Shown here one piece after another: positions 15,459-28,936 of a stretch of DNA of 64,000 bases. Positions within the stretch are counted from its first letter, which is position 1. Every line of letters starts with the position of its first letter. A program made the translations under genes and the position numbers. The notes beneath the pieces were generated by a model. It did no database searches and was not told the origin of the DNA. It was given only the letters and a program-made list of their open reading frames with translations. This stretch comes from Kineosporia mesophila (lineage in GTDB: Bacteria; Actinomycetota; Actinomycetes; Actinomycetales; Kineosporiaceae), in assembly GCF_021129235.1 (NCBI RefSeq), contig NZ_JAJOMA010000015.1, positions 124,001-188,000 on the forward strand, given 5' to 3'.

Positions 15459-15475
15459 CGTGATCATGCAAAGAT
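15459..15475 (+). repeat. Half copy of the CGTGATCATGCAAA palindrome family
   Basis: CGTGATCATGCAAAGAT matches the left arm of the complete elements at 16411 and 40394 for the first 14 bases. CATGATC at 15435-15441 may be all that is left of a second arm. It sits between two minus-strand genes. Confidence 0.6.
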
Positions 15476-26840: not shown

Positions 26841-28049
26841 TCAGTCCCACAGCTCGACGCGGTGGGATCTCACGAGGGCCTCCATCCGGCTGAGCAGCTG
26901 ATCGGCGGGCCGGGGGTCGAGGCGTCGTCCGTCGCGCAGGCGCAGGGCGACCTGACCGTCGGCGGCCTCGCGGGCCCCGATGACGGCCTGATAAGGGATC
27001 AGGCGGCTCTCCCGGATCCTGGCGCCCAGGCTGTCACCGTCCGGGGTGACGACCCGGGGGCGCAGCCCGCGGTCGAGGCAGCGCCGGGCCAGGTCCTGGG
27101 CGTGCGGCATCTCGGCGCCGGAGATCGGGATGATCGCCACCTGGTGCGGGGCCAGCCAGGGCGGGAAGGCGCCGCCGTGCTGCTCGATCAGGTGCGCCAC
27201 CGCCCGTTCCACGCTGCCGATGATGCTGCGGTGCACCATGACCGGGCGGTGCCTGGCCCCGTCCGCGCCGACGTAGTGCAGGTCGAACTGCTCGGGTTGA
27301 TGAAAGTCCACCTGCACGGTGGAAAGGGTCGACTCCCGGCCCACGCTGTCGGTGACCTGCACGTCGATCTTCGGCCCGTAGAAAGCGGCCTCGCCCTCGA
27401 CCGCCTCGTAGGGCAGGCCGTCGAGCACCTCGGTCAGCAAGGCGGTGGCACGGTCCCATTGCTCCGGCGCCGCAACGTATTTGCCTCCCGGACCGGGCAG
27501 GGACAGCCGGTAGCGGGAGGCGGTGATGCCGAGCGCGGCGTAGGCGTCGCGGATCATCGCCAGCGCGGCCCGGGCCTCCTGTGTGACCTGGTCGAGAGTG
27601 CAGAAGATGTGGGCGTCGTTGAGCTGGATCGCCCGCACCCGGGTCAGGCCGCCGAGCACCCCGGACCGCTCGGAACGGTACATGCCGCCGAGTTCAGCCA
27701 GGCGGAAGGGAAGTTCGCGGTAGCTGTGCAGCCGTGACCGGTAGATCAGGGCATGGTGCGGGCACAGGCTGGGCCGCAGCACCACCTGCTCACCGCCCAG
27801 GTCCAGGGGCGGGAACATGTCGTCGCGGTAATGGCCCCAGTGGCCGGAGATGTCGTACAGCTCCCGCTTGCCGAGCACGGGGGAGTAGACGTGCTGGTAC
27901 CCCGCCTTGCGCTCGGCGGTGCGGATGTACTCCTCCAGGGTGTGGCGCACGGTCGCGCCCTCGGGCAGCCAGTAGGGCAGACCCGCCCCGATCAGCGGGT
28001 CGGTGTCGAACAGGCCCAGCTCGCGGCCGATCTTGCGGTGGTCGAACAT
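26841..28049 (-). CDS. Compact threonyl-tRNA synthetase lacking TGS and editing domains
   Basis: A 402-residue class II synthetase that would charge tRNA-Thr. From ATG 28049 (GGAGGAG seven bases upstream) the protein starts directly at the catalytic core. Bacterial ThrRS is normally ~640 residues with N-terminal TGS and editing domains, both missing here. The three Zn2+ ligands that recognise Thr are kept: C96 (RPSLCPHH), H147 (LNDAHIFC) and H273 (MVHRSIIGS). Motif 2 (YRSERSGVLGGLTRVR) and motif 3 (GSVERAVAHLIEQ) are intact, and the C-terminal anticodon-binding domain follows HQVAIIPIS. It is probably a second, non-editing ThrRS, as in stress-induced or antibiotic-insensitive copies. A Thr-codon leader peptide and terminator precede it. 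Confidence 0.9.
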   Translation of the reverse strand: MFDHRKIGRELGLFDTDPLIGAGLPYWLPEGATVRHTLEEYIRTAERKAGYQHVYSPVLGKRELYDISGHWGHYRDDMFPPLDLGGEQVVLRPSLCPHHALIYRSRLHSYRELPFRLAELGGMYRSERSGVLGGLTRVRAIQLNDAHIFCTLDQVTQEARAALAMIRDAYAALGITASRYRLSLPGPGGKYVAAPEQWDRATALLTEVLDGLPYEAVEGEAAFYGPKIDVQVTDSVGRESTLSTVQVDFHQPEQFDLHYVGADGARHRPVMVHRSIIGSVERAVAHLIEQHGGAFPPWLAPHQVAIIPISGAEMPHAQDLARRCLDRGLRPRVVTPDGDSLGARIRESRLIPYQAVIGAREAADGQVALRLRDGRRLDPRPADQLLSRMEALVRSHRVELWD

Positions 28050-28085
28050 GATGGCTCTCCTCCGGGAAGAGGGGTGAGCGACCAC

Positions 28086-28120
28086 ACGAAAAAGCCCCGG
28101 GGTGCTCACCCCGGGGCTTT
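28086..28120 (-). terminator. Attenuator terminator upstream of the threonyl-tRNA synthetase gene
   Basis: Read on the minus strand, AAAGCCCCGGGGTG pairs with its exact complement (14 bp, 28107-28120 with 28091-28104) and runs into TTTTTCG. It stands between the leader peptide stop and the synthetase ribosome-binding site, where only attenuation makes sense of so strong a terminator. Confidence 0.88.
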
Positions 28121-28131
28121 GAAAACAGGTT

Positions 28132-28182
28132 TCAGCGCGCCGGGAGACTTTCCGGCGTCGTCGTCATGGCAGCGCGCTTCAT
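28132..28182 (-). CDS. Threonine-rich leader peptide of the ThrRS attenuator
   Basis: This 16-codon open frame encodes MKRAAMTTTPESLPAR and stop, with three consecutive Thr codons (ACG ACG ACG, 28164-28156). It ends 12 bases before the terminator hairpin and 82 bases before the synthetase start. TACGGT (28195-28190) lies seven bases before its ATG and fits a TANNNT -10 box, so the leader mRNA may begin at the ATG itself (leaderless, common in actinomycetes). Just after the Thr codons CGCCGG and CCGGCG (28157-28152, 28143-28138) can form a small hairpin. Its 3' side, TCCCGG, could instead pair with CCGGGG of the terminator stem, giving a classical switch. An internal ATG would give an 11-residue form with the same codons. 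Confidence 0.8.
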   Translation of the reverse strand: MKRAAMTTTPESLPAR

Positions 28183-28222
28183 GCCGACCACCGTAGCAGG
28201 GCCGTCGCCGTTTCTCCCCGGG

Positions 28223-28240
28223 ACCGGTGGGGTCACCGGT
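28223..28240 (-). terminator. Short hairpin at the end of the nucleotidyltransferase gene
   Basis: ACCGGTG and CACCGGT (7 bp, 4-base loop) overlap the stop codon of the gene and precede the leader-peptide promoter. No T-run, so it is weak by itself. Confidence 0.4.
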
Positions 28241-28760
28241 ACTGCTCGGGCACGACCAGCCCGAACCGGTCGCACAGCGCCCGTACGTCGGCCCGGTCGT
28301 CGGCGTCCCCCGCGTAGGCATCGTGGAAGCGCACGACCCAGGCGGCGGCGATGCAGCTGACCGGCCGGTCGCCCAGGACGCCGTGCCCGGTCAGGGATTC
28401 CGCCGGGTACACGGCCCCTTTCCCCACCGGCCCGAGAACCCCGTTGTCGTGCTCGTCCAGCACGATGACGTGCAGATCGACGACCGCACCGCCGGGACCT
28501 GCCAGCAGGAAGTTCCAGGCCGTCGCGCCGTCCTCCCCGACCGCCGTGAACCCGTGGTGCGACAGGGTGCCGACGAAGGCGTCCAGGTGCCGGGCCTCGA
28601 TCGCCAGGTCGAGATCGCCGTGGTCGCGGGTCTGCCGGCCCAGAAGGGCGTCGACGCCCCAGCCCCCGTCGATCCAGACGCGGGCGCTGCCGGCCAGGTC
28701 GAGCACGGTGAGCACGTCGCCGAGTTCGGTCCGGGATCCGGGTGGTGTGCTGGTCGCCAT
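28233..28760 (-). CDS. Nucleotidyltransferase-fold protein (lincosamide/aminoglycoside nucleotidyltransferase-like)
   Basis: A 175-residue protein from ATG 28760. The core signature is WIDGGWGVDALLGRQTRDHGDLDLAI (residues ~29-54): a G-G/W-x7-G-R-x-T-R-x-H-x-D-x-D block as in LinA/LnuA and ANT(2'')-type drug nucleotidyltransferases, with the two Mg2+ aspartates in DLD. A later VVDLHVIV could carry the third carboxylate. This could be drug modification or an unknown substrate; I would not call resistance without a test. The gene lies directly upstream of the ThrRS leader. Confidence 0.75.
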   Translation of the reverse strand: MATSTPPGSRTELGDVLTVLDLAGSARVWIDGGWGVDALLGRQTRDHGDLDLAIEARHLDAFVGTLSHHGFTAVGEDGATAWNFLLAGPGGAVVDLHVIVLDEHDNGVLGPVGKGAVYPAESLTGHGVLGDRPVSCIAAAWVVRFHDAYAGDADDRADVRALCDRFGLVVPEQYR

Positions 28761-28879
28761 GTCCGGGATTCTCCGCCTCGCCGTGGGGCTGTGTGCGCAT
28801 CCCGGGACGACCCGTTCACGCCTTACCGCCAGGCCGGCCAGAACCCTTCCACGCTGGGGGAGCTCGCGGTGACGCAGCA

Positions 28880-28936
28880 GACCCGTCGCACAGGTCAAGC
28901 GGTGTCGGCGGGGACTCCCGGCCTGTGCGACGGGTC
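28880..28936. repeat. 15-bp inverted repeat with 27-base spacer
   Basis: GACCCGTCGCACAGG (28880-28894) is perfectly complementary to 28922-28936. It lies in the gap between the TetR gene end (29055) and the nucleotidyltransferase start (28760), both minus strand. It is either a terminator stem for the TetR gene or a decayed mobile palindrome. Confidence 0.65.

Follow-up and report, generated by a model that had tools for sequence, protein, structure and literature searches.

A conserved threonine leader peptide, probably part of an attenuator, precedes the gene of an auxiliary threonyl-tRNA synthetase in actinomycetes

In the DNA of Kineosporia mesophila analyzed here (the window, 64,000 nucleotides), the gene of a short auxiliary threonyl-tRNA synthetase (ThrRS2) is preceded by a leader reading frame with three consecutive threonine codons and by RNA hairpins that probably form a threonine-sensing, ribosome-mediated attenuator, which possibly acts on translation too. 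The kind of regulator is already known; what is new is its wide and specific conservation, its link with the housekeeping ThrRS in one genus, and a covarying pairing between a hairpin loop and a segment near the ribosome binding site. A single leader peptide listed for Streptomyces lividans is thereby extended to a widespread and testable regulatory family of actinomycetes, which precedes the auxiliary and, in one genus, the housekeeping enzyme. The arrangement suggests that a backup ThrRS is switched on by a fall in threonyl-tRNA, e.g. when a natural ThrRS inhibitor such as borrelidin is present, and that one RNA loop may link attenuation with the access to the ribosome binding site.

Features of the regulatory region

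The elements of the region are the following, with the basis of each assignment in brackets.

28195-28190, minus strand: -10 box TACGGT, 7 nt before the leader ATG (sequence; position conserved in relatives)
28182-28132, minus strand: leader ORF of 16 codons, MKRAAMTTTPESLPAR and then TGA (read directly; homologous leaders upstream of ThrRS2)
28178-28134, minus strand: P0, in which leader codons 2-3 (28178-28175) can pair with the leader end (28137-28134) (alignment)
28164-28156, minus strand: regulatory codons ACG ACG ACG (Thr-Thr-Thr), followed by CCG (Pro) (sequence)
28157-28138, minus strand: P1 hairpin at the third Thr codon, CGCCGG (28157-28152) with CCGGCG (28143-28138), segments 1 and 2 (sequence)
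28145-28140, minus strand: segment 2, UCCCGG, possible antiterminator partner of the terminator 5' arm (28114-28109) (pairing potential)
28120-28091, minus strand: terminator-like large hairpin, segments 3 and 4, with a GAGC loop; T run at 28093-28089 (sequence, covariation)
28111-28104, minus strand: segment A, GGGUGAGC, apical part and loop of the large hairpin (covariation of A with B)
28079-28072, minus strand: segment B, GCUCACCC, the complement of A, which in many relatives matches the Shine-Dalgarno region in the same way (alignment, swap test)
28063-28057, minus strand: segment C, the Shine-Dalgarno sequence GGAGGAG of the ThrRS gene (sequence)
28049-26841, minus strand: thrS2, auxiliary ThrRS of 402 amino acids, ATG at 28049 behind the Shine-Dalgarno sequence (TIGR00418, Pfam)

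An earlier note on this DNA had described a threonine leader before a ThrRS gene, a strong Shine-Dalgarno sequence with the synthetase ATG, and a small hairpin directly after the Thr codons; all three were read directly at the positions given above. The alternative pairing it had proposed between segment 2 and the 5' arm of the terminator can form as well, with 6 bp (UCCCGG/CCGGGG, one of them G-U). The hairpin it had taken for a 14-bp GC terminator followed by five T is present, but the stem has 13 bp (nine G-C, one U-A and three A-U), and A residues of the 5' arm pair with three of the five T. As to the interpretation, the translated threonine leader, the synthetase as target and a leaderless start are supported and the antiterminator stays a candidate, whereas the auxiliary type of the enzyme, the loop pairing and the hint at translational control had been missed. 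A basic search of the window for promoters and terminators gave no match; it demands five T after the stem, and three T of this hairpin lie within the stem.

By eye and from its translation, the gene upstream of the leader (28233-28898, minus strand) looks like a small nucleotidyltransferase. Elsewhere in the window, a repeat with the core CGTGATCATGCAAA occurs at 15459, 16411, 16480, 24115, 40394, 40463, 45506 and 45536, with some copies in close inverted pairs.

The synthetase behind the leader

The thrS2 product scores 432.7 bits against TIGR00418 (thrS; cut-off 383.65), and its Pfam matches are the catalytic and the anticodon-binding domains only, the N-terminal domains being absent; it is therefore a short auxiliary ThrRS, and it shares 39-40% identity with the genome's other ThrRS. 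The best match among solved structures is 1nyq (645 residues, of which 242-623 match), which we take to be the Staphylococcus aureus ThrRS. An alignment was made of 140 ThrRS2 proteins longer than 330 residues; it contains one duplicate pair, and one shorter protein was dropped. In 140/140 the three zinc ligands are retained, as are the counterparts of human D462, Y540, Q562 and D564.

The pocket of the inhibitor borrelidin differs at several positions. Contacts named in PMC4389257 that correspond to human M411, Q460, Q566, L567 and A592 are S (136), L (140), H (128), Q (138) and S (134) in the 140 proteins, with the limits that 1nyq also has L at Q460 and that the other ThrRS of the window genome also has Q at L567. 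In the available text of that paper, the twelve positions altered in borrelidin-resistant archaeal enzymes include these five, and the ThrRS of the borrelidin producer is itself altered at Q566 and L567. The contacts S386, G387, H388, F539 and Y540 are unchanged in ThrRS2. Taken as residue changes in an alignment, these differences are a hint that ThrRS2 may be resistant to borrelidin. Resistance of the obafluorin type, for which Gly463 of the Escherichia coli enzyme is changed (PMC11252418, available part), was discarded, given that this Gly is kept in 140/140.

The leader is conserved in frame and its mRNA is predicted to be leaderless

Relatives of the locus were taken from two sets, the best 80 of 556 relatives from named genomes and a less biased sample of 394 genomes of the class, 62 of which hold ThrRS2 when it is counted at 52% identity or above. 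Both sets and the window gave 140 distinct upstream regions after removal of one duplicate and exclusion of G650, which has 54 nt upstream. Using a regular expression that required three Thr codons, a leader homologue with these codons and Pro was found in 137/140, and the three misses were inspected. The earlier reading hinged on loci that keep the synthetase also keeping the Thr run and the terminator: the run is kept in the 137, and the losses are L051, which has ThrRS2 with both leader and hairpin gone, and L036, which has the hairpin and lacks the leader near a contig end (155 nt available). In L143 the upstream region is cut by a contig end at 103 nt. Among the 137 leaders the codons of the run are ACGACGACG in 133, ACTACGACG in two and ACCACGACG in two, so that all changes are synonymous. 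Two loci outside this count, L252 and L253, have leaders with two Thr codons.

Leader starts were assigned from the spacing to a TANNNT box, ignoring the frame (box 5-9 nt before ATG, GTG or TTG; start no more than 75 nt from the Thr run), and a single candidate was obtained in 136/137. Despite the variable length of the leaders, the start is in frame with the Thr run in 137/137: the distance is 18 nt in 95 leaders and 21, 24, 27, 30, 42, 45 or 54 nt in the rest. The spacing between the stop codon and the large hairpin, in the set of the best 80 of 556 relatives, takes every value from 13 to 19 nt. Since the first distance is always a multiple of three and the second can have any value, the comparison is strong evidence that the leader ORF is translated.

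The -10 box was found before all 137 leader starts, at 7 nt (118) or 6 nt (19). In promoters activated by WblC the distance from the -10 box to the start site is mostly 7 or 8 bp (PMC7157823, available text); from this spacing, the mRNA is expected to begin at or next to the leader ATG. A leaderless start, as the earlier note had suggested for the window, is thus predicted for 137/137 leaders, and for the S. lividans member such a 5' end has been mapped (PMC8079986, available text).

Specificity of the leader for ThrRS2

The core pattern of the leader has five matches in 396 genomes of the phylum, four of them (including the window) upstream of ThrRS2 and one (L092) elsewhere. A covariance model, R1, was built from 48 sequences and gave 59 matches scoring 50 bits or more in the class sample of 394 genomes; behind 58 of them a ThrRS2 match follows on the same strand after 28-366 nt. 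The remaining one (G592) is followed by the contig end after 113 nt, within which no ThrRS2 is recognizable. The next match below this set has 42 bits. Seen from the enzyme, 58 of the 62 ThrRS2 genomes have the leader by R1 and two more, with diverged leaders (L152 and L153), by the regular expression; the other two loci (G650 and G515) are at contig edges.

Among the R1 matches below 50 bits, six of 29 regions were inspected: L184 and L185 hold Thr leaders, L188 holds an aromatic leader, and no leader was found in L186, L189 and L190. Four further weak matches (L192, L194, L196 and L201) hold no matching Thr run. In L188 (G590:C1:2563000-2565500, about 358-481) a leader-like frame, MQRKFWRFYGYRPSGRTVALLALR, is seen with a hairpin and a T run before a gene that by eye resembles DAHP synthase. 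With TATAGT 7 nt ahead of the leader ATG, the arrangement resembles an attenuator for aromatic amino acids with a leaderless mRNA.

A leader of this type before the housekeeping ThrRS in one genus

The weak R1 matches led to leaders with ACG ACG ACG CCG and P1 before a ThrRS that has the N-terminal domains. A second model, R2, built from seven housekeeping-type leaders, has a match in 40/40 genomes of one genus, from which six of the seven sequences came. In the 30/30 loci fetched, the gene behind the leader has a match to the first 300 residues of the housekeeping-type ThrRS; the Thr run was found by regular expression in 29/30, and 27 of these have a recognizable start, always in frame. In the class sample (E<=1e-5) R2 recovers the housekeeping version in three genomes (G735, G712 and G599), and the other 17 matches are ThrRS2 leaders. 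Upstream of the housekeeping ThrRS of the window genome, the first 1030 nt or so of L007 (reverse strand), which should span the upstream region, hold no run of three Thr codons.

In 12 of the 29 housekeeping-type leaders, the segment that pairs best with the leader end has the start codon as its beginning. This pairing has one double change (AUGCCGC/GCGGCAU vs AUGCCGU/ACGGCAU), and its swap control is modest, with the own partner better in 71% of the comparisons.

Hairpins behind the leader

An alignment, A1, was made from 70 of 93 non-redundant loci, leaving out L152, L153 and 21 others. In it, the four pairs of P0 form in 65-70 of the 70 sequences with no double changes; in L151 a modified helix of 6 bp was recognized by eye. 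All six pairs of P1 are invariant in the 70 sequences and give no covariation information. The candidate antiterminator pairs in 98.1% of the cells, also invariant and with no double change; covariation is accordingly silent on both helices. In contrast, the large hairpin pairs in 91.9% of the cells and has 19 double-changed cells vs 3.2 +- 1.6 in shuffled alignments; slid by +1, it has 23 such cells but pairs in 67.8%. Covariation of the competing stems, which the earlier note had proposed as a check, is hence found for the large hairpin and gives no signal for the antiterminator.

Among the 93 non-redundant relatives, the 9 nt behind the GC stem hold zero to four T in 69 and five or six in 24; the window, with six, is among the three best. 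On these counts termination is plausible in the window and doubtful in many relatives. Folding of the RNA from behind a stalled ribosome left the large hairpin as the best structure in seven of eight sequences, the antiterminator winning in L133, which means that antitermination would have to be kinetic.

Pairing of the hairpin loop with a downstream segment

Segment A can pair with segment B in 93.8% of the cells, with double changes in 6/9 pairs and 25 double-changed cells vs 7.0 +- 2.1 in shuffles. Slid versions of this helix have 1-8 double-changed cells and their pairing drops to 37-57%. In a swap test independent of the alignment, the own loop beats foreign loops for 20/24 loop types and fails for four; the mean score is 18.8 for own and 15.8 for foreign loops, and the own loop is better in 83% of the comparisons. 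The automatic choice of the hairpin is poor for a few loci (e.g. L135), which were retained in the swap test and in the U-tract and Shine-Dalgarno folding counts. In the window 8/9 pairs form, the ninth being missing; compared with the commonest combination, GGGCGAGU/ACUCGCCC, the window pair GGGUGAGC/GCUCACCC represents two compensatory changes. For columns 109-111, in the arm of the hairpin, pairing with B is possible in 69-70 of 70 sequences; the complete A:B helix may therefore extend into the stem and so compete with it. A pairing of this kind hints at control at the level of translation.

The second partner of B is the Shine-Dalgarno region. B and C pair in 86.2% of the cells, with a double change in 8/9 pairs; nine cells are double-changed, where shuffles have 4.7 +- 1.9 and three slid versions reach 10-14. 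Given this small excess and the higher counts of the slid versions, masking of the Shine-Dalgarno sequence by segment B is weakly supported. When the part downstream of the hairpin was folded for 92 sequences, the mean unpaired probability of the Shine-Dalgarno sequence was 0.325, against 0.392 with the upstream part shuffled, a small effect (Wilcoxon p about 8e-8), and 8/92 sequences fall in the lowest tenth of their own shuffles.

Proposed mechanism and alternatives

The conserved in-frame Thr-Thr-Thr-Pro leader, the similar leader of the housekeeping ThrRS in one genus, the S. lividans peptide encoded before ThrRS2 in L253 and the covariation of the large hairpin and of A:B were counted for attenuation; the invariance of the antiterminator and P1, the persistence of the large hairpin in seven of eight folds of the stalled state, the poor U-tracts, the loci L051 and L036, the four loop types that fail for A:B, the weak B:C signal and the small effect on the Shine-Dalgarno sequence were counted against it. 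On balance we regard a threonine-sensing, ribosome-mediated attenuator of the auxiliary ThrRS as likely. Transcription would start at the leader ATG, as the position of the -10 box predicts. With ample threonyl-tRNA the ribosome would reach the stop codon and cover segment 2, the large hairpin would form, and no synthetase would be made. When threonyl-tRNA is scarce, for instance under inhibition of the housekeeping ThrRS, the ribosome would stall on the Thr codons and cover the first arm of P1; segment 2, set free, may pair with the 5' arm of the large hairpin, and RNA polymerase would read on. The opened hairpin would then expose segment A, which could draw B off the Shine-Dalgarno region, presumably in this order, and the message would be translated.

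An extended form of this mechanism is put forward tentatively, as an idea we would not yet rely on. The apical loop would imitate the Shine-Dalgarno sequence, and one downstream segment would pair with either of them, so that stalling would both let the polymerase pass and unmask the ribosome binding site; leaky read-through would then stay silent. As the guarded backup ThrRS has an altered inhibitor pocket, the whole would be a resistance switch that responds to falling tRNA charging.

A purely translational attenuation, in which the large hairpin is no terminator and stalling only rearranges the RNA and opens the Shine-Dalgarno sequence, seems to us rather unlikely, even if it is the strongest of the alternatives. 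It would agree with the poor U-tract of the 69 relatives, with the A:B covariation, which ties the hairpin loop to a segment near the Shine-Dalgarno sequence, and with the S. lividans leader, behind which one hairpin and no uridine-rich stretch are described (PMC8079986, available text). On the other side, the window itself has TTTTT behind a GC stem, and the B:C covariation is weak and does not beat the slid controls.

The promoters bear on another alternative, namely that the leader acts like the uORF of wblC, as a general sensor of stalling for ribosome-targeting antibiotics and not as a threonine sensor. The thrS2 gene of Streptomyces coelicolor, a putative ThrRS2 orthologue, is among the WblC-activated genes (PMC7157823, Table 1, available text), and the WblC motif reported there is GAAAWY, 3 bp upstream of the -35 region. 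GAAA is found at -36 to -28 from the -10 box in 57/93 non-redundant ThrRS2 promoters vs 0.9% in shuffled sequence. Such a sensor would need no Thr codons, while the run is kept with synonymous changes only; in addition, a similar core precedes the housekeeping ThrRS, and the window has no GAAA at the WblC position, which makes this alternative improbable. A WblC/WhiB7 box in the window (GAAA 31-34 nt before the -10 box) was itself ruled out, GAAA being found only at -19. The ThrRS gene SCO3778 of S. coelicolor is listed among eleven sites to which sigma-E binds under ethanol stress only (PMC10771440, available text).

The end of the leader peptide, VPAR, is widely kept among the 80 closest loci (the best 80 of 556), and for this reason a nascent-peptide arrest motif (TTTPE..VPAR) that senses a ligand in the ribosome tunnel was considered. 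In L129 and L138, though, the frame is shifted behind the Thr run while the P1 stem of the RNA is retained, and the housekeeping-type leaders end in other peptide sequences than those of ThrRS2; it follows that the RNA and not the peptide is kept, and an arrest motif is very improbable.

The E. coli thrS gene is under autogenous control by ThrRS, which binds its own leader (mentioned in the available part of PMC2965389). The same mode of control here would fit the class of the gene product, but it would leave a conserved in-frame leader ORF needless and ThrRS2 has no N-terminal domains, so we give it hardly any weight.

Relation to known leaders

Many synthetase genes of Gram-positive bacteria carry a T-box, which senses the charging of the cognate tRNA. 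The window leader would respond to the same signal, but would sense it by a leader ORF, and a T-box was rejected: the window has no Rfam match at the gathering threshold, and in 27900-28300 no T-box family appears even at E<=5. In this interval Rfam gave 14 low-score matches, all below the cut-offs (the best being NsiR1 and His_leader, 25.4 bits each).

The closest known case was described by Droste et al. 2021 (PMC8079986, available text): in S. lividans TK24 the leader thrL, MKRVRPFLETTPGFVPAR, lies before thrS, with a leaderless 5' end. Like the window it has a Thr leader peptide before a ThrRS gene, a leaderless 5' end and one hairpin behind; it has two Thr codons, whereas the window has three. 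The same peptide is encoded exactly before the ThrRS2 gene of L253, whose enzyme is 72.8% identical to that of the window, and therefore S. lividans thrL belongs to the ThrRS2 leader family. The thrL pattern has matches in 2/295 genomes of the genus searched. The cross-species alignment, the covariation and the pairing of the loop with the Shine-Dalgarno region are presented here and were not found in the available text of that description. It was the one earlier description retrieved, and the loop-to-Shine-Dalgarno pairing goes unmentioned in the literature searched, mostly freely readable papers. In the available parts of PMC4833913 and PMC2965389 no threonine leader was found.

Other synthetase leaders of Actinobacteria are related in kind. 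The auxiliary TrpRS of S. coelicolor, trpRS1, is subject to ribosome-mediated transcriptional attenuation (Vecchione and Sello 2010, as cited in PMC4787780) and is listed for indolmycin resistance in a review table (PMC9437257). Going by the title of that paper, trpRS1 is, like ThrRS2, an auxiliary synthetase, and in a streptomycete it is under the kind of control proposed here, ribosome-mediated attenuation; it senses tryptophan, whereas the window leader would sense threonine. Seliverstov et al. 2005 (PMC1262725) proposed candidate attenuators of trpS2 and leuS, with leader peptides before synthetase genes as here, and the LEU element of leuA; according to the available text of their paper, no conserved RNA structures were found upstream of threonine operons. 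The LEU element combines a pseudoknot with pairing to the Shine-Dalgarno sequence. In it the run of Leu codons pairs with the Shine-Dalgarno sequence, whereas in the window the hairpin loop and the Shine-Dalgarno region may compete for one segment. Finally, TTTPGAR, which resembles the threonine leaders described here, is part of the metL leader peptide listed for S. lividans (PMC8079986, Table 4, available text).
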